Assembly (NCBI GenBank): GCA_020829485.1
Contig: JAIVFU010000239.1
Coordinates: 1 to 6,894, forward strand
DNA length: 6,894 bases
Reading direction: 5' to 3'
DNA from: Nostoc sp. CHAB 5834
Lineage (GTDB): Bacteria; Cyanobacteriota; Cyanobacteriia; Cyanobacteriales; Nostocaceae
The translations under genes and the position numbers were made by a program. Below are positions 1 through 6,894 of this stretch, piece after piece; within the stretch, counting starts at the first letter, position 1; each line of letters opens with the position of its first letter. Under the pieces are notes generated by a model, which did no database searches, was not told where the DNA came from, and saw only the letters and a program-made list of their open reading frames with translations.

Positions 1-2
1 TC

Positions 3-719
3 AAATACGACTATTTTGAGCACGCCGAAAGGAATGCCATTTACAACCTGGCACGGCAAACACTAGCGGGCTCCACTGCGCTGTGTACCGCTCCACCTGA
101 TATCAGCAGTGCTCGCGCGCTGATATCCGTGGGTGTTTCTGCTGTCTACTGGCTCGAACCTGAGGACGTGGAGAACGAAGAAAGCCTCAGCTTTTGCAAG
201 GCTCTCTTTCGCGAAGCGGGCATTGCATTCTGCAATTTCAAGCGCATCGATGAGATGGATTTCAATGTGGACCGCTTGACCCGTAAGCTTTCGGGAAACA
301 TGCAGTTCACCTTGGCGATGTCCGAGCTGATGTCCAAAGACCCAAAACGGTCTGGGGCCCTTTTCTTGAACAAAGACTACACCACCCTCACAGAAGGCTA
401 CAGCGGACAACCGCGGGGTGCTAATGATGACCTTCAAACCCGTTATTCTGGCGCAGAACGTGCGACATGGGTGGAGAGCTCAATTCGAAATGCAATTTAC
501 AACCTCGTCCGGCCCATCCTTCGCGGGAGCGTGCTCACGGTCACGTTTACAACCTGTGTAGAGTGCGCGCGTGCAGCAGTTGCAGTAGGAGCTCAATCGG
601 TTGTCTACCGCGAGCCGAATGAGGACTTTTTAAGCCGATGGGGTGACAGCGTGAAGGAAGCTTTGGCAGTTCTGAAAGAGCTGCAAGTCCCTGCACATGG
701 CATACGTATCGAGGACTAA
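3..719 (+). CDS. Tandem deoxycytidylate-deaminase-like protein, 5' end outside the window
   Basis: The frame is open from the left edge, so the start lies outside; 238 residues are visible. Two copies of a dCMP-deaminase-type fold can be seen. The first begins mid-domain at HAERNAIYNL (HAE at residues 7-9) and continues through a region where PCxxC should be but which reads PPDISS (31-36). The second is complete, from about residue 100: a GYSGQPRG segment (132-139, typical of dCMP deaminases), then SSIRNAIYNL (159-168) where HAE should be, then TCVEC (C185, C188). The RNAIYNL.R..L.GS block recurs 152 residues apart and is also similar at DNA level. In this family H and two C bind zinc and E shuttles the proton in dCMP to dUMP deamination. 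Each copy therefore holds only half an active site, and activity is doubtful unless the halves combine. A GTG at 129 is only an internal codon. Family assignment is strong; function is unknown. Confidence 0.85.
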   Translation, partial: KYDYFEHAERNAIYNLARQTLAGSTALCTAPPDISSARALISVGVSAVYWLEPEDVENEESLSFCKALFREAGIAFCNFKRIDEMDFNVDRLTRKLSGNMQFTLAMSELMSKDPKRSGALFLNKDYTTLTEGYSGQPRGANDDLQTRYSGAERATWVESSIRNAIYNLVRPILRGSVLTVTFTTCVECARAAVAVGAQSVVYREPNEDFLSRWGDSVKEALAVLKELQVPAHGIRIED

Positions 720-732
720 AAACTGATTTATG

Positions 733-763
733 AAAGGTGTGGGCTTAGCCCGCACCTTTTTTT
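733..763 (+). terminator. Rho-independent terminator of the deaminase-like gene
   Basis: A 12-bp stem (733-744 with 748-759, one G-U pair) closes a TTA loop and runs into seven T residues at 757-763. It starts 14 bases after the stop codon at 717-719. On the opposite strand the tract after the stem is not a clean T run, so it acts mainly on plus-strand transcripts. Confidence 0.9.
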
Positions 764-785
764 GTTGGAGTCAGACACAAAGTAA

Positions 786-818
786 ACGGGTACAGAGTCA
801 TAAAGACGCTGTACCCGT
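786..818 (-). terminator. Inverted repeat, probable terminator of the minus-strand ATPase/VWA operon
   Basis: Perfect 10-bp arms ACGGGTACAG (786-795) and CTGTACCCGT (809-818) enclose a 13-base centre. It lies 29 bases beyond the stop of the VWA gene. Read on the minus strand the hairpin is followed by TTTACTTT, a weak U-rich tail; no such tail follows on the plus strand. The loop is large for an intrinsic terminator, so a protein-binding site is an alternative. Confidence 0.55.
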
Positions 819-847
819 GAATGATTTAAATGCGCATTACCTCGTGG

Positions 848-2374
848 TTAACGCTTGAGCAGAAGAATGCCCTCAACGAGAGATTCTACCGTATCCCGAA
901 TGATTGCCTTGTCGAAATGCTTTAACAGATTCTCCTGGTAGCCCGCCGAATCACCGACATAGAGCCCCAACGTGTAAATCCCCTTTGCATGTAAAGAAGC
1001 CTTGTTAATAGGAGCATCTGTGATATGTCCATCGGTGTACACAAAAACATAATCAGCCGCTTTCGCAAACTTCATATTGTCTTTGATGGTTCCTGCAATA
1101 CCTTCACCTGAGAATCGCCCTTTTATCTTTTCAATTACATCTAGGCTGAGGGGCAGGGCATAGGTCTCCCATACACTGCTGTTTTTTTGCACAGAAGATA
1201 GGGCGATATGGCCCGTGATGTGCCCTTGCTTGGCAAGCTGAGACAAAGCACACACCAGTAACTTTCCTTCATCTGCGTGGAACCCCGCCATTGACCCGGA
1301 GCAGTCGAACACCAAAAAGATGTTCTTCTTGCCCCCGGTATCCTTTTTAGGCTTCTTGAAGTGTGCCTGACCGAGAACGAAGTGCTTTATCGAAATCCGT
1401 TTTTGAGGAACTTCGGTCATGACTTTTCGGTTCTTGTCCCTGAACATCAGAGACAGTCGATTTGCCACCTTGAATGCTCGGGATATGTCTACCTCAGACG
1501 CATCATCCGAGAGAACACTCCCATTTGATGAAGCTGGAGTATCGTTGCCGGTCGAGGCTTCTTCCAGGGCTTCCTTGGGGGATTCCTTGTGTCCCGCCAG
1601 GTCAATGCTGTCTTCATCAAATTCAGCGAGAGCATTTCCATTTCCGGCGAAAAAGCCAAGCATGAGGTCGCTGAACTTGTTGGCTTCTTGAGGATGAGCC
1701 CCGAACTTCCTGAGCCATCTTTCGATAATTGGCATTAGGGCAAGTGACTGTTTTACCTTGATGATTTCGCAGTAGTAAGGGTAGACTTCATTCAGTATTT
1801 TTTCTGCCTTATCAGCCTTACTCAACGACATGTCGTGTTTCAGTTCGGTAAACCTTCCCTCATACTGAATCAAGGCAAACATTATTGCCTCTGGGCTACT
1901 TTCGGCAACTGCTACGTTTTCATATTTCGTCCAGTTGAATCTGTAATTGAATTTATCCCGGTAGCGCTCCTCAATCACCGCGTCTTCAAACAGGTTAAAC
2001 AGCCTAAAAGGTGCTTTGATTGACGTTAGCGCATTGTTTATCAGCTTCATGTTGCGCACTGTAAAGTACGCGTGAGCCAACTCATGATGAAAGTAGTTTC
2101 CAAGGTATTCCGAGACTTCATCATCCGTCATTTTCGTTTTTACGGACGGATTCTGGAGAATGTCAGTCCCCAGGTAAATCCGGTGTGGTGGAACGAAGGC
2201 CCAACAAGCTGTCGAGAAGTGCTTCTTAAGCTTGATGATGCGCTTTTCAGGGAGCGCGTCCTCATACAGCAGAGTCGAAAAGACCGCTTTGTTGATTGCT
2301 TCCTTGATGAAGGCTTCGTCAACGTGAGGGTATGCTCGCGGCGCACCCTTTCCTAAGCTTGGCAGCCCCTTCAA
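848..2374 (-). CDS. CobT-like VWA protein with an HExxH metallopeptidase-like domain, partner of the MoxR-type ATPase
   Basis: 508 residues, cytoplasmic, no signal peptide. The N-terminal half has HELAH (97-101) followed 28 residues later by LFEDAVIEE (128-136), the HExxH plus downstream E/D-rich helix layout of putative zinc metallopeptidases in the VWA-like and CobT-related families. An acidic, Ser-rich linker spans about 250-297. The C-terminal VWA domain shows the MIDAS residues: D357-C-S359-G-S361, T429 in GIAGT and D448 in VYTDG. Known family members act with MoxR/CobS-type AAA+ ATPases in remodelling or metal-insertion machines, and such an ATPase is directly upstream. The TTG start overlaps the ATPase stop as TTGA and has a GAAGG ribosome site seven bases upstream; the next in-frame ATG, at residue 82, would discard conserved-looking sequence. 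Protease activity is an inference from motif only. This is not a cobalamin enzyme by context. Confidence 0.85.
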   Translation of the reverse strand: MKGLPSLGKGAPRAYPHVDEAFIKEAINKAVFSTLLYEDALPEKRIIKLKKHFSTACWAFVPPHRIYLGTDILQNPSVKTKMTDDEVSEYLGNYFHHELAHAYFTVRNMKLINNALTSIKAPFRLFNLFEDAVIEERYRDKFNYRFNWTKYENVAVAESSPEAIMFALIQYEGRFTELKHDMSLSKADKAEKILNEVYPYYCEIIKVKQSLALMPIIERWLRKFGAHPQEANKFSDLMLGFFAGNGNALAEFDEDSIDLAGHKESPKEALEEASTGNDTPASSNGSVLSDDASEVDISRAFKVANRLSLMFRDKNRKVMTEVPQKRISIKHFVLGQAHFKKPKKDTGGKKNIFLVFDCSGSMAGFHADEGKLLVCALSQLAKQGHITGHIALSSVQKNSSVWETYALPLSLDVIEKIKGRFSGEGIAGTIKDNMKFAKAADYVFVYTDGHITDAPINKASLHAKGIYTLGLYVGDSAGYQENLLKHFDKAIIRDTVESLVEGILLLKR

Positions 2375-2386
2375 TTGGACACCTTC
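2371..2386 (-). promoter_or_regulatory. Ribosome binding site and TTGA stop/start overlap coupling the two genes
   Basis: On the minus strand GAAGG (2386-2382) precedes TTG (2374-2372) by seven bases, and that TTG shares bases with the ATPase TGA stop (2373-2371). This decides the non-ATG start of the VWA gene and indicates translational coupling, so the two proteins are probably made in a fixed ratio. Confidence 0.75.
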
Positions 2387-3771
2387 GTTTCGGGGAACAG
2401 CTTGTCTAAGAGTAATACCACCTTGGCCATCTGCTCCGCAATGGGATGCCCGTCTAGGTCCCGACCCACCCAGAGGAGGGCTTGGCCCTCCAGGGCTTCT
2501 CGTATCGCATGCTCTGACCGTGCCAGTTGAATGGCCCGCACAATGGTCCGCGTCGTAGGCGCTTGAGACACCGACTCGTCTTTCTTAAGCTGTACCATCG
2601 CGTTGTAGAAGTTCAGGAGTCTTGCTTCGTACAGCGGCGGGAACTTACGCTCGGCCAGCTTGGCAGAAATAATCTGCTTCAACTTTGCCGAGGTCGTATC
2701 TTTGCGCAAGATGACAAATCGCTCGCCCAACGCTGGGTCTAGCTCTTCGACAGCGTATTCCGCCCCCACGTTCGTCGTTGCAATGACACAGAGGTTACCA
2801 ACGGGACATTCGATGTACTCCTCCTGAGCAACCCCGTCCTCGCTCACAGACAGGATTCGACCTGTGCGCAATCGATATACGGGTTCAGACTCTTCGTCGG
2901 TATCGTCGGGAGAGAAAGCCGTAAGCAGGATAGACAAGTGCTCTTGCGGAATCCGCAGCAGCTCATCAATCAGCAGAACTGTCTTTTCCCCGCGAGCCTT
3001 GCGGAACGCTTCCGAAATCGGCCCATCCTTCCAGACTAGCTCCCCAGCGCGGTACGGAACCAGGCAGCCAAGCATGTCCGTAGCCTCAACTCCTTCATGA
3101 CCTCCCATTTCTACATAAGAGGCTTGAATTTGCCGGGCGAACATACGAGACTCTCTGGTCTTACCCGAGCCACGGTCTCCCTCAAAGAGCACAGGCACCT
3201 TGAAAGCGAGGTAGGGGAGGTTGAATCCTTCCTCGTTAGCGCTCAGGTCCCCAGGGTCGACTTCGCCTCCGTTTGCAGACAATGCGGACAAGCCATCTGC
3301 CAGAAATTGGGCATGGTCACGAGGGTTGGAGTCCAGAACAGCATTCACATGCTTACAGAACTTGCGTTCTCGTTGCCAGCCCGTCCAGAAATTACAGGCT
3401 GCAGATATCTCCAGTTGACCTTGTACTGAGCTCATTTGCTTCGCCAGGGTTACCTTGTTGGGGTTCCCCGCGAGCGCTTCAGAGATTCGCTCGCTAGCCT
3501 CCCGGGCGCCAAGGCGGCCCTTCTCTGCAAATTTGTCACCACACCATGCCATGAACTGGGGGTTGCCGTCCTCCATGTAAGCAGCAAGAACCACGTTATG
3601 CTGGTTAATGCCTTCTTGAACTGTGAAAATGCTTGCGTATGCCAGTGATGAAGTTCGAGAAACCGTATCAAAATACGGGAAAGGTCCGTCAAAAGTGGGC
3701 ACGACGAAGCAGTCCGGATACACGTTCTTTCGCGCTTCAACGATGCGTTGCTGAAAATCAGCTTGTTTCAT
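2371..3771 (-). CDS. MoxR/CobS-family AAA+ ATPase
   Basis: 466 residues. The AAA+ module occupies about 185-460: Walker A GDRGSGKT (198-205), Walker B VLLIDE (265-270), sensor-1 N334 in ATTNVG, the MoxR/CobS hallmark LDPALGERF (344-352) with arginine finger R351, and a sensor-2-like R408. The first ~185 residues are an extra domain. It includes C77, then an AAC...CKHVNAVL segment (124-146) resembling the end of a SWIM zinc finger, although the usual first CxC reads AAC. MoxR ATPases use ATP to remodel or activate partners and are typically co-transcribed with VWA proteins, as here, where the next gene starts inside this stop codon. The start ATG has AGGAG six bases upstream; another ATG four bases further upstream is in a frame that stops after five codons. 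The substrate is unknown. Confidence 0.9.
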   Translation of the reverse strand: MKQADFQQRIVEARKNVYPDCFVVPTFDGPFPYFDTVSRTSSLAYASIFTVQEGINQHNVVLAAYMEDGNPQFMAWCGDKFAEKGRLGAREASERISEALAGNPNKVTLAKQMSSVQGQLEISAACNFWTGWQRERKFCKHVNAVLDSNPRDHAQFLADGLSALSANGGEVDPGDLSANEEGFNLPYLAFKVPVLFEGDRGSGKTRESRMFARQIQASYVEMGGHEGVEATDMLGCLVPYRAGELVWKDGPISEAFRKARGEKTVLLIDELLRIPQEHLSILLTAFSPDDTDEESEPVYRLRTGRILSVSEDGVAQEEYIECPVGNLCVIATTNVGAEYAVEELDPALGERFVILRKDTTSAKLKQIISAKLAERKFPPLYEARLLNFYNAMVQLKKDESVSQAPTTRTIVRAIQLARSEHAIREALEGQALLWVGRDLDGHPIAEQMAKVVLLLDKLFPETKVSN

Positions 3772-3907
3772 TCATATCTCCTGTTAATTCCTCCTTCGTA
3801 TAGAGACAAAGGAGTCCAGTAGACAACGGGCTTGTTTGGTTTAAAAGGCATCTGCCGCTTTAGATAGCCGTTGTTTGTGACAGTGGTGGGCACTGAGACG
3901 TCCAAGC
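3772..3907. other. 136-bp gap between recombinase and ATPase genes
   Basis: No gene is visible. It holds a small hairpin just after the recombinase stop (CAGTG 3881-3885, CACTG 3891-3895) without a T run. It also holds a spaced inverted repeat ACAACGG (3823-3829) and CCGTTGT (3868-3874), whose first copy overlaps the putative -35 of the ATPase promoter. This makes it a possible regulator-binding pair, without further support. Confidence 0.4.
3777..3826 (-). promoter_or_regulatory. Possible promoter and ribosome binding sites upstream of the ATPase gene
   Basis: On the minus strand TTGTCT (3826-3821) and TATACG (3802-3797), 18 bases apart, each match four of six consensus bases of a sigma-70 promoter. 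Initiation would fall near 3790, giving a leader of about 20 bases. AGGAG (3782-3778) is well placed for the ATG at 3771. A second strong purine motif, AAGGAGG (3796-3790), has no usable start codon at the right distance. The promoter call is weak; the AGGAG site is secure. Confidence 0.4.
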
Positions 3908-5098
3908 CTACTTGGGCAGTTGATGCTTTTGGGCCTCGTCATGCCACCGTTCATCTTCAACGTGCGAATACATTTCCGTGGTTCGAGCGTCGGCATGTCG
4001 GGCATCGCGCTGTACGTACCGCATTTCCATGCCTGCGTCCACCTTGCCGGTAATCCCTGTATGCCGCCCCCAGTGCGCTGAAGCGCGCCGCATCTTCTCG
4101 CGCTTGTGCACCTGGTCGTCAGGCAGCAGGTTGCTCGCTTGCAAGAACAATTCTTTCAGGATGCGGTTCAGCTGCCTGGCTGTAATTTTGGAGCCGTCTC
4201 GGACACTCCGTAGCAGGGGAGATGTGTCCGTCATGGATGGGACCGCAGACAAGCCCAGAAACTTCCGGTATCGGACCAAAGCTGTCAGCATGTCGTCCGG
4301 CACCGGAATGAGCGCTTCCTTCTGTCCTTTTCCGACCACGTGCCACCACCAGCGGCCACGATGCTCCTGAAACGAATTCATTCGATGCGTCTCCAGCTCT
4401 CCGGCCCGAGGAACCAGCAGGTAAAGCAAGGAGACCAGAAACACGGCCCGCTCATACTTGGCTACGTCTGCAGGTGTCTCCCGCGGCAGCTGCTCCAACG
4501 CACACATCAGCGCCTTCCACATGTCTGCATCCAGAAAACGCTCCATCTTGGGCTGATTGCCCATGGCGGACAGTGGTGTCCGAGTGGCCTCGTAGAGCTT
4601 CTGCTTCTTTTGCTTCATGAGCCCCAGAGGATTACCTTTGAGGTACCCGGCATTCGTCCACCAGGTGAACAACGAATTCAGACTGGAGAGGGCTGTCGTA
4701 CCTGCAGAGACGTTCAGTTTGCCAACAAAGGGCTTCCACTGCGAGCTCTCCTGCGGAGCTCGTGGGCCACACCAGTACTGAGCCGGCTGAGGGTCTGCCA
4801 GGAACGCGAGGTACTCATCGAAGTCCTCTCGGTTCAGGGATGACACGGGCTTGTCTTTGACAATCCAGGCCCAGAGGAAAAGCCTCTCTGTCTCTCTGCG
4901 GTAGAGCCTGAACGTGGCCGAAGACCCTTCGTGCTCTGATAAGAAGGCATCAAGAGCCTGGAAGTCATTAGCAGCCTCCAGCTGCAGCATGGAAAGCTCA
5001 GCTCGGTTTGCTCCCTTCGAGCCAAGCAGCCGCTCGGGGGGCTGAAGCTTTCTCAAGGGGGAAATGTTGGCCGGTGGCCAAGCGGAAGTGGGGGGCAT
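3908..5098 (-). CDS. Tyrosine recombinase / phage-type integrase
   Basis: 396 residues, a usual integrase length. The N-terminal SAM-like core-binding domain covers about 45-160 (ATFRLYRRETERLFLWAW). The catalytic domain covers about 185-390 and has the full set: R231 in VPRAGEL, K257 in GKGQK, H342 and R345 in HWGRHT, H368 in DARHAD and the nucleophile Y377 in TTEMYSHV. The usual GH before the tyrosine is RH here. The enzyme should cut and rejoin DNA at paired ~11-13-bp arm sites through a 3'-phosphotyrosine. ATG at 5098 is supported by GGAG (5107-5104) five bases upstream. A 28-bp dif-like palindrome abuts that ribosome site and is the obvious candidate substrate or operator. No excisionase is visible. 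It could drive integration of an element, resolve dimers or invert DNA; the window does not show which. Confidence 0.93.
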   Translation of the reverse strand: MPPTSAWPPANISPLRKLQPPERLLGSKGANRAELSMLQLEAANDFQALDAFLSEHEGSSATFRLYRRETERLFLWAWIVKDKPVSSLNREDFDEYLAFLADPQPAQYWCGPRAPQESSQWKPFVGKLNVSAGTTALSSLNSLFTWWTNAGYLKGNPLGLMKQKKQKLYEATRTPLSAMGNQPKMERFLDADMWKALMCALEQLPRETPADVAKYERAVFLVSLLYLLVPRAGELETHRMNSFQEHRGRWWWHVVGKGQKEALIPVPDDMLTALVRYRKFLGLSAVPSMTDTSPLLRSVRDGSKITARQLNRILKELFLQASNLLPDDQVHKREKMRRASAHWGRHTGITGKVDAGMEMRYVQRDARHADARTTEMYSHVEDERWHDEAQKHQLPK

Positions 5099-5108
5099 AA
5101 CTTCTCCA

Positions 5109-5136
5109 GTGTCTGATAATGGATATTATCAGACAC
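5109..5136. repeat. 28-bp perfect palindrome with dif/Xer-like geometry; candidate recombination site or operator
   Basis: The arms GTGTCTGATAAT (5109-5120) and ATTATCAGACAC (5125-5136) are exact inverted repeats around GGAT. Read as a Xer site it is 11 + 6 + 11: arms GTGTCTGATAA and TTATCAGACAC around TGGATA. From memory, E. coli dif is also 28 bp (11 + 6 + 11), and its central ATAATGTATATTAT differs from this site's ATAATGGATATTAT at one of 14 positions. It ends one base before the ribosome site of the recombinase gene. Alternatives are an operator for the nearby Xre-type protein, or an mRNA hairpin in the recombinase leader. Confidence 0.7.
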
Positions 5137-5177
5137 ATCATAAGAGCCCCAAAGTCGGTCAAAAGAGCTTTAAGAAG

Positions 5178-5564
5178 CTATTCGATTCGAGAGATAGCCG
5201 TCAGCACGTAATCGGTACCGAGCTGCGACTGAAGCAGTTCAATCGGAACGGCCCCCTTGAGCGACGGCTGCTGCGAAAACAACCACAAGCGACCACGGCT
5301 TTCACCCAACTTGTCTTTGGCTCGTAGATAAGCATCGGCAATGCGGTACATCGAACACGAGCAGGCTTCATTGAGCCGCTCGCCTTTTAGTTCACCAGGG
5401 CCAACCTGGACAAACTCACGCAGGGACATCTGAGTGACTCCTAGCGCGGTGGACAGTGCTTTCAGCGACGATGTGTGGATACCTTGCGTTAAGACCTCAT
5501 GCCAACCGTACAGCGACTCAGGCGGCTCGTCTACGGCTAACAGCTGTGCAAGGTGCTTGTTCAT
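5178..5564 (-). CDS. Xre/MbcA/ParS-type antitoxin (DUF2384 domain), no toxin visible
   Basis: 128 residues. The N-terminal part (about 15-52) looks like the HTH of Xre-type antitoxins (LKALSTALGVTQMSLREFV). The C-terminal toxin-binding domain (about 73-128) follows the family pattern closely: RIADAYLRAKDKLG, then WLFSQQPSLKGAVPIELLQSQLG, ending at ISRIE where relatives usually have a few more residues. In known pairs this protein blocks a RES-domain, NAD-degrading toxin encoded next to it and represses its own promoter. Here the next gene is the recombinase, and the preceding one is a secreted protein, so no RES partner is in the window. ATG at 5564 has AGGAG (5574-5570) five bases upstream. 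It could be an orphan antitoxin guarding against a toxin elsewhere, or a regulator of the recombinase and element. Confidence 0.8.
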   Translation of the reverse strand: MNKHLAQLLAVDEPPESLYGWHEVLTQGIHTSSLKALSTALGVTQMSLREFVQVGPGELKGERLNEACSCSMYRIADAYLRAKDKLGESRGRLWLFSQQPSLKGAVPIELLQSQLGTDYVLTAISRIE

Positions 5565-5595
5565 GGTGGCTCCTAAATATCAGGTATAGCCACCA
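5564..5595 (-). promoter_or_regulatory. Inverted repeat enclosing the ribosome binding site of the antitoxin gene
   Basis: Exact 8-bp arms TGGTGGCT (5564-5571) and AGCCACCA (5588-5595) are 16 bases apart. In the mRNA the 3' arm overlaps the end of the AGGAG ribosome site and the A of the start codon, so the hairpin would limit translation. As DNA it could be an operator for autoregulation. The enclosed CCTGATATTTAGG is roughly symmetric and shares CTGATA with the palindrome at 5109-5136. Confidence 0.5.
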
Positions 5596-5637
5596 CGAGG
5601 GCTGCATTGTGCGATTTAGCTTACAAAAGCGGTCCGT

Positions 5638-6435
5638 TCACCTTGCTAAAAGACCAACGAGAGCATAGGAGCCTGTGGAGAACTCGATGCGCACATGACC
5701 CACGGCGTCGTGCTTAGAGCCGGTGTAATACACCGTGGCCATACAGCTCTCGTTGGGCTCAACTTCGACGCAGTTATGCTCGCCGCTGAACCCGGGGGTG
5801 AAGTGCATCCCTACGATGGATAGCTTTCGGTAAACGATTGGCGGGCCTTCTTCCAAGACCATCTCCGTGTTCAAGATGCCGAATTCGTGAGGCTCCCCAC
5901 CCCACAAAACGGCGCCAGGCTGAGCCTTCTTTTCAAGAGCCCCGTCAAAGACGAAGTCTTGTGGCACGAACGTTGGCACCATGACTTCGTAACGATTTAA
6001 GCTCTTGGCCCCGTAAACCGTTACCGGGTATTCCGCCGGAGCTTGGGTAGAGGGAACACTGCCAGCACAGCCAAGTACTGTTCGCTTGAGCCCGGCTTGC
6101 GAAAATCCGAGGACCGCCCCACTCCACTCCTTGAAAGTCTGCACTGTCCGCGCAATGCAAATTTGGACGGTTTCTTCGTTGGTGGAGACAACGGACCACG
6201 ACATGGCAGCGTTGGTGGGCGGGGTGAATCCCCACTGAGGGAACAGCTGGACCTCACTCGCTGAGGCTTGTGTACCGTCAATCGTATTGACAGCCGCCAT
6301 CCGGCGATTAAACGCGGCCTCCACCGAGTGCGCCGTTCGAACGATGGCATGCGCAACCTGAGACTCAATAGGGCCTACCGCCCACGAAATCCCCGGTACC
6401 ACCAATGCAAGTGCAAGGAGCCCTGCGCTTTTCAT
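5638..6435 (-). CDS. Secreted protein with a C-terminal HYDIN/choice-of-anchor-D-like beta domain
   Basis: 265 residues from ATG at 6435. That start gives a clean Sec signal peptide (MKSAGLLALALVVPGISWA, likely cut before VG) and overlaps the upstream stop as ATGA; an ATG at 6528 would put 31 unlikely residues before the signal and has no ribosome site. The mature part has no recognised enzyme motif. Residues about 184-262 follow the pattern of ASH/HYDIN-like Ig folds: a C-x8-C pair (C222, C231) in a loop with EPNESC, then TVYYTG, then a glycine-rich last strand ending ALVGL. Two further cysteines (C93, C123) could form a second disulfide. It is probably periplasmic or surface-located, in a structural or adhesive role with the upstream gene product. 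The domain call is from pattern recognition only; the rest of the protein is unrecognised. Confidence 0.75.
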   Translation of the reverse strand: MKSAGLLALALVVPGISWAVGPIESQVAHAIVRTAHSVEAAFNRRMAAVNTIDGTQASASEVQLFPQWGFTPPTNAAMSWSVVSTNEETVQICIARTVQTFKEWSGAVLGFSQAGLKRTVLGCAGSVPSTQAPAEYPVTVYGAKSLNRYEVMVPTFVPQDFVFDGALEKKAQPGAVLWGGEPHEFGILNTEMVLEEGPPIVYRKLSIVGMHFTPGFSGEHNCVEVEPNESCMATVYYTGSKHDAVGHVRIEFSTGSYALVGLLAR

Positions 6436-6893
6436 TTGGTAACGCCCGGAACGTAGCTCACGTAAAACGTGATGCTCAGCTGTGAAGGCAAGTTGGCGGG
6501 CGTTGCAACCGACGTAATGGCGCCGCATTCGCTGTTCATCATGTATTGCTCAGGCGAAAAGACAGAAGCAGCTCGGCTTGCACCTTTCCATGCAACGACG
6601 TCAGCAGCTCCCACAGTTGTGGATTTCAAGCAGAAATAATTGAGCCCCGCCCACATACTTCCATCACTGGGATGCGCCCCGTATTCCCATTGAAAACCGG
6701 CTGGCGCTGCCGGTAGGAACTTTAGCAAGGGGCGAAAGTTTTGGGCGAACCCTCCGTCAGCCCCGGCTGATACAGAGGGGGGCTCCCCGTCATTGGCACG
6801 GGTAATTACATCGTAAGCCTGCTCCATCTGGGAAAAGCCCGCTCGAATGGTCAGCTCAACGTCCTGCGAAGGTTTCTGCCACCAGGGTATGTA
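6432..6893 (-). CDS. Exported pilin-like or surface protein, N-terminus outside the window
   Basis: The frame stays open to the right edge; 153 residues are visible. The ATG at 6827 (residue 23) lacks a ribosome site and is probably internal. The visible start YIPWWQKPSQDVELTIRAG, a following helix-like stretch (about 12-35), a loop-rich body with several W and G residues, and a C-terminal cysteine pair (C88 and C123) before a beta-strand ending (SITFYVSYVPG) recall the globular domain of type IV pilins and minor pilins, where such a disulfide closes the D-region. The diagnostic N-terminal prepilin helix would lie outside the window, so this is a suggestion. Its stop overlaps the ATG of the secreted protein downstream, so the two are co-translated and probably act together outside the cytoplasm. 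Confidence 0.6.
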   Translation of the reverse strand, partial: YIPWWQKPSQDVELTIRAGFSQMEQAYDVITRANDGEPPSVSAGADGGFAQNFRPLLKFLPAAPAGFQWEYGAHPSDGSMWAGLNYFCLKSTTVGAADVVAWKGASRAASVFSPEQYMMNSECGAITSVATPANLPSQLSITFYVSYVPGVTK

Positions 6894-6894
6894 G

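Follow-up and report, generated by a model that had tools for sequence, protein, structure and literature searches.

A tandem dCMP-deaminase-like protein predicted to build one zinc site from both of its repeats

We analyzed the first 6,894 nucleotides (positions 1 to 6,894 of the forward strand; the window) of contig JAIVFU010000239.1 from Nostoc sp. CHAB 5834 (GCA_020829485.1). At the 5′ edge lies part of a gene for a tandem protein of the deoxycytidine monophosphate (dCMP) deaminase type. Its reading frame, 3-719 on the plus strand, is open at the window edge and ends in TAA, and both Pfam PF00383 and PHROG phrog_174 match the product. Dividing each of its two repeats into an N-half and a C-half gives the chain order N1-C1-N2-C2.

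3..719, plus strand: 3′ part of a tandem dCMP-deaminase-like gene; 238 aa plus stop codon, with the N-terminal ~70 residues beyond the window
3..71, plus strand: in-window part of the repeat 1 N-half (N1), predicted outer domain; HAE at 21-29 gives the putative zinc His and catalytic Glu
72..242, plus strand: repeat 1 C-half (C1), putative dead half of the inner domain, approximate boundary; the zinc Cys positions read D (99-101) and S (108-110)
243..527, plus strand: repeat 2 N-half (N2), putative dead half of the inner domain, approximate boundary; SSI (477-485) replaces HAE
528..716, plus strand: repeat 2 C-half (C2), predicted outer domain; putative zinc Cys pair at 555-557 and 564-566
732..760, plus strand: terminator-like hairpin with a T tail, 3′ of the deaminase gene, from a consensus scan

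The scan of 650-900 gave two terminator-like hairpins against a mean of 0.2 in shuffled sequences. All of the motif residues listed above had been read correctly in a preliminary description of the gene, which proposed either a composite site between copies or subunits or a conserved pseudoenzyme, and argued against simple decay.

We consider it highly probable that the protein is a tandem dCMP-deaminase-type enzyme folded as an intrachain domain-swapped pseudo-dimer, with one composite zinc site and one dead inner unit, likely converting dCMP to deoxyuridine monophosphate (dUMP). N1, which spans repeat 1 from helix 1 through its HAE helix, would join C2, comprising strand 3, the CxxC helix and the rest of repeat 2, to form one canonical deaminase domain in the predicted structures. 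C1 and N2 would pair as an inner domain, of presumed fold and with a decayed site, that could act as a structural or regulatory unit. The live site would unite the His and Glu of repeat 1 with the two Cys of repeat 2, and from this we infer zinc binding and catalysis. The apparent loss of two half-sites is, as judged from sequences and models, a single loss of one whole site, the inner one. In a swapped pseudo-dimer, loss of that site costs repeat 1 its Cys and repeat 2 its His and Glu, so that two matching losses no longer need explaining.

Searches for homologous proteins returned 217 matches with a single query and 7148 and 2927 with alignment queries, the best 120 of each being listed. The tandem set drawn from these, a non-random sample of best-scoring relatives, has 223 members including the window row (P0001-P0090, P0095 and P0121-P0252). 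Another 29 proteins of 138-174 aa (P0091-P0094 and P0096-P0120) were taken as single-domain and dropped before counting; HxE is present in 29/29 of them, with CxxC at most 45 residues away in 28/29. Residues are numbered as in the relative P0004. Repeat 1 has His77 and Glu79, and repeat 2 has Cys253 and Cys256, in 223/223 tandem proteins. The complementary positions are Cys in 0/223 (first) and 76/223 (second) for repeat 1, and His in 1/223 and Glu in 54/223 for repeat 2. Remnants of the second site survive in part of the family, never as a whole site, and no tandem homologue has an intact repeat (0/223). Only P0151 has a His at the dead repeat 2 position, where it reads HAA, and it retains the second Cys of repeat 1; it is possibly an intermediate of inner-site decay.

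The same split persists down to 29% identity to P0004 among the first 91 sequences. The His is separated from the first Cys by a median of 180 residues across the two repeats of the 223 tandem proteins, versus 28 in 58 single-domain deaminases. In a control set of 160 loci (the best 80 of 305 from a scan of genome contigs and the best 80 from an alignment-query scan of IMG/VR), a frame with the GxNx-HxE signature was found in 158/160, and CxxC lay at most 45 residues from the His in 158/158 of these. The conserved split of the site is not due to chance. The possibility of an intact deaminase domain further upstream in the same protein, raised previously, found no support among the 222 relatives other than the window row: the residues preceding the His number 70 at the median (range 22-120), which normally leaves no space for an extra domain. 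In these relatives repeat 1 also carries a GYNG motif, with Asn52 in 221/222 and Gly53 in 221/222; the window begins after the motif. In the repeat 2 counterpart, residue 202 is Ser in 77/91, and most of these first 91 sequences show a GYSGMPRG-like motif. Three tandem members, P0128, P0219 and P0235, have 181-227 residues after the last Cys, versus a median of 61.

Half-by-half comparison points in the same direction. Hidden Markov models of each half were built from the 58 single-domain deaminases, which remained of 69 frames (from 162 loci, the control 160 and two from Variovorax) after filtering by length and CxxC. N1 outscores N2 in 222/223 proteins, the exception being the window row with its truncated N1, and C2 outscores C1 in 220/223. 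Columns with one residue at ≥90% number 26/85 in N1, 2/56 in C1, 4/86 in N2 and 4/59 in C2, and N2 is much reduced (46-69 residues) in eight tandem members. By these sequence measures the two outer halves lie nearest to ordinary deaminases, as predicted for a live outer and a dead inner site.

AlphaFold2 models of two distant tandem members, computed as monomers without zinc, have predicted local distance difference test (pLDDT) values of 96.3 and 93.3 and predicted template modeling (pTM) scores of 0.94 and 0.91. They align with the bifunctional dCMP/dCTP (deoxycytidine triphosphate) deaminase of PBCV-1 (7fh4_A) over 140/140 residues at 1.2 Å and 138/140 at 1.4 Å. Because the ranges aligned to this single-domain chain begin in repeat 1 and extend as far as repeat 2 ends, N1 and C2 would make one canonical domain by an intrachain swap. 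All five solved chains found by the family profile (138-193 residues) are single-domain, and ADAT2/ADAT3 was among the fold matches of the structure comparison.

Couplings favor the same pairing. The top 200 long-range couplings include 26 for N1-C2 and 23 for C1-N2 as compared to 11 for N1-C1 and 13 for N2-C2. With mutual information, calculated with the window row left out, 65 of the top 200 are swapped and 30 unswapped, the numbers of possible pairs being nearly equal (10674 and 10701), and the swap is favored in 20/20 bootstraps. For the strand 3 and helix 3 segments alone the ratio is 29 to 10, so the crossing probably precedes strand 3 and groups the repeat 2 CxxC helix with the repeat 1 HAE helix. 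Repeat 1 positions 103, that of the lost first Cys, and 105 couple with repeat 2 position 227, that of the lost His, which fits positions 103 and 227 facing one another within the dead inner site.

Several observations weigh against an intrachain swap. The modeled crossing rests on alignment ranges rather than on a His-Cys distance or an exact jump point, both models are zinc-free monomers, and both derive from relatives instead of the incomplete window protein. The coupling preference is only about 2:1, and some strong couplings are unswapped (65-139 and 226-258); these may be inter-domain contacts or noise. When equivalent pairs are compared the preference weakens, with the swap winning 12/20, 27/40, 41/60 and 60/100. 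Sequence identity to the solved chains is similar for all hinges and, for some chains, also for the unswapped reading, and conservation in C2 is modest (4 of its 59 columns). A different arrangement, in which each repeat folds on its own and different subunits of an oligomer supply the two parts of the composite site, would accommodate the same split site. Known DCTDs (dCMP deaminases) are hexamers according to PMC12088426, and couplings cannot separate contacts in cis from those in trans; yet both monomer models produce the canonical domain from one chain, with the close superpositions and high pTM scores given above, and we regard the trans arrangement as unlikely. The composite site suggested in the preliminary description is thus supported by conservation, by the two structurally aligned models, by couplings and by half similarity, and in the models it lies between repeats of one chain.

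Each repeat, read on its own, lacks half of a site, and the inner halves retain the GYSGMPRG-like motif, as might be expected of a protein that is catalytic at neither site and serves as a nucleotide sensor or scaffold. However, exactly the four residues that make one full site are strictly kept (223/223), as is the Asn of the N1 GYNG motif (221/222), and a sensor would presumably not require a proton-shuttle Glu together with a Cys pair. We consider a pseudoenzyme very improbable for the whole protein; that part of the earlier proposal applies instead to the inner pair C1-N2, which looks like a dead domain. Ordinary decay or a sequencing error has a negligible probability: although the window holds one truncated copy, the identical split in 223/223 relatives refutes it, as the preliminary description had anticipated. 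With the intrachain pseudo-dimer as the preferred reading, a duplicated enzyme may appear dead in both copies and yet be live, since loss of one whole site after a swap leaves complementary halves, and repeat-by-repeat annotation would label such a protein a pseudoenzyme. Tandem deaminases of this kind would offer a natural setting in which to test how swapped pseudo-dimers and obligate live/dead pairs evolve.

Paired live and dead domains are familiar from ADAT2/ADAT3, from Escherichia coli CDA with its dead second domain, and from the C1/C2 domains of adenylyl cyclase. In ADAT2/ADAT3 and E. coli CDA the zinc site lies within a single domain, and adenylyl cyclase combines a live and a degenerate site at its pseudo-twofold interface. 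We know of no such deaminase with its zinc ligands split between domains, and our searches of the open-licence PMC literature found no description of a cross-repeat deaminase architecture.

Single-domain DCTDs (nearest solved, PBCV-1 7fh4; also human 2w4l and S-TIM5 4p9c) resemble the N1+C2 composite in fold, HxE, CxxC and GYNG. They carry the His and first Cys in one domain, whereas the tandem family spreads them over two repeats, so that the HxE and CxxC motifs of the PF00383 family occur solely as a two-repeat composite (223/223). The DCTD fold is predicted in the two models of relatives, and repeat 1 has the allosteric G(Y/W)N(A/G) motif as defined in PMC12088426. Each chain has two repeats in place of one deaminase domain per protomer, and we therefore regard the tandem protein as a variant, not a standard DCTD member. 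The nearest known tandem DCTD found is human CDADC1, a (d)CTP deaminase (PNAS 2025, PMC12088426), which likewise has two DCTD-like repeats per chain, one live and one dead. According to that paper, each repeat is its own domain with its own zinc, the linker exceeds 100 residues, the N-terminal domain has HAG and the C-terminal domain HAE, and PCxxC is present in both. Unlike CDADC1, the tandem family has no repeat with a complete zinc site of its own (repeat 1 first Cys 0/223; repeat 2 His 1/223). The anti-phage dCTP deaminase (NCBIfam NF041025; PADLOC dCTPase PDLC02373) has a related catalytic segment, matching P0004 at 45.7 and 41.8 bits, but over 45-60 residues only. NF041025 scores of 45.7 (P0004) and 22.2 bits (P0156, another tandem relative) fall far below the curated cut-off of 400, and ComEB (TIGR02571) scores of 23.2 and 40.2 bits, respectively, fall below 219.45.

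The rest of the window encodes the following.

848..2374, minus strand: protein that we take to be VWA/CobT-like by resemblance; no Pfam match; on Variovorax sp. SRS16 plasmid 2 a counterpart of 39% identity lies immediately upstream of the deaminase gene
2371..3771, minus strand: AAA_5 (MoxR/CobS-like) ATPase (Pfam, PHROG), with 47% identity to the second gene upstream of the deaminase on Variovorax plasmid 2
3908..5098, minus strand: tyrosine recombinase (Pfam, PHROG), sharing 53% identity with a recombinase of Variovorax sp. SRS16 plasmid 2
5178-5564, minus strand: small protein with a weak match to the Xre/MbcA/ParS antitoxin C-terminal domain (25.7 bits; cut-off 24.5)
5638-6893, minus strand: two overlapping frames with no Pfam or PHROG match at E 0.001

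The window deaminase is 43% identical to its full-length counterpart (WP_068673669.1) on the 801 kb SRS16 plasmid 2, where it is annotated "hypothetical protein". The ATPase and VWA/CobT-like pair (848-3771, minus strand) stays beside the deaminase there; in SRS16 the three genes are consecutive and co-oriented, and in the window the deaminase is convergent to the other two. Matches to the ATPase and deaminase were also present in three sister strains of SRS16, and a search of the phage collection at E 1e-5 gave no match to the ATPase. The SRS16 plasmid also encodes thyA, DNA polymerase, ligases, gyrase A, RecJ and a 5′-nucleotidase. Most likely, the tandem enzyme would convert dCMP, and possibly also dCTP, to dUMP on a Burkholderiales megaplasmid that carries thymidylate synthase, and the dCMP-to-dUMP step feeding ThyA is, from gene content, its likely role. 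The window's own element may also bear thyA, a gene seen here on the Variovorax plasmid. Gram-negative hosts use dCTP deaminase for dUMP supply (PMC12088426), so this would be a megaplasmid-borne dUMP supply in hosts that use a different enzyme.

Trees were built from samples of 35 tandem proteins and 30 single-domain rows, with 24 tandem proteins for approximately unbiased (p-AU) tests. In the N-half trees, N2 of the window's clade stands beside its own N1 and apart from N2 of the P0156-type clade, a placement that hints at two separate duplications. The test of a single N2 clade falls short of rejection (p-AU 0.061), three C-half tree tests reject nothing (p-AU 0.476, 0.212 and 0.525), and these comparisons appear compatible with one or two duplications. 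We regard as doubtful the fuller proposal of an unrecorded intrachain-swapped architecture with a single cross-repeat zinc site that arose by at least two separate duplications (one in the megaplasmid-type clade of the window, one in the P0156-type clade), with the inner site lost each time and the dead inner domain retained for built-in regulation, replacing the second subunit of the classical ring.

Single-sequence queries found no relatives in IMG/VR, and the matches from two IMG/VR scans with alignment queries were mostly ~400 bases, read as single-domain genes (best 80 each). A P0156 query at E 1e-30 gave 0 matches in 398 genomes of the phylum of the Thalassospira genome (G001) that holds locus L017, a search run without a positive control. 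Among individual loci, a viral contig (L087) has a 212-aa deaminase frame whose Cys/His-rich N-terminal part resembles an HNH nuclease by eye, and two single-domain deaminases (L018 and L042) have a long C-terminal extension that appears MazG-like by eye.
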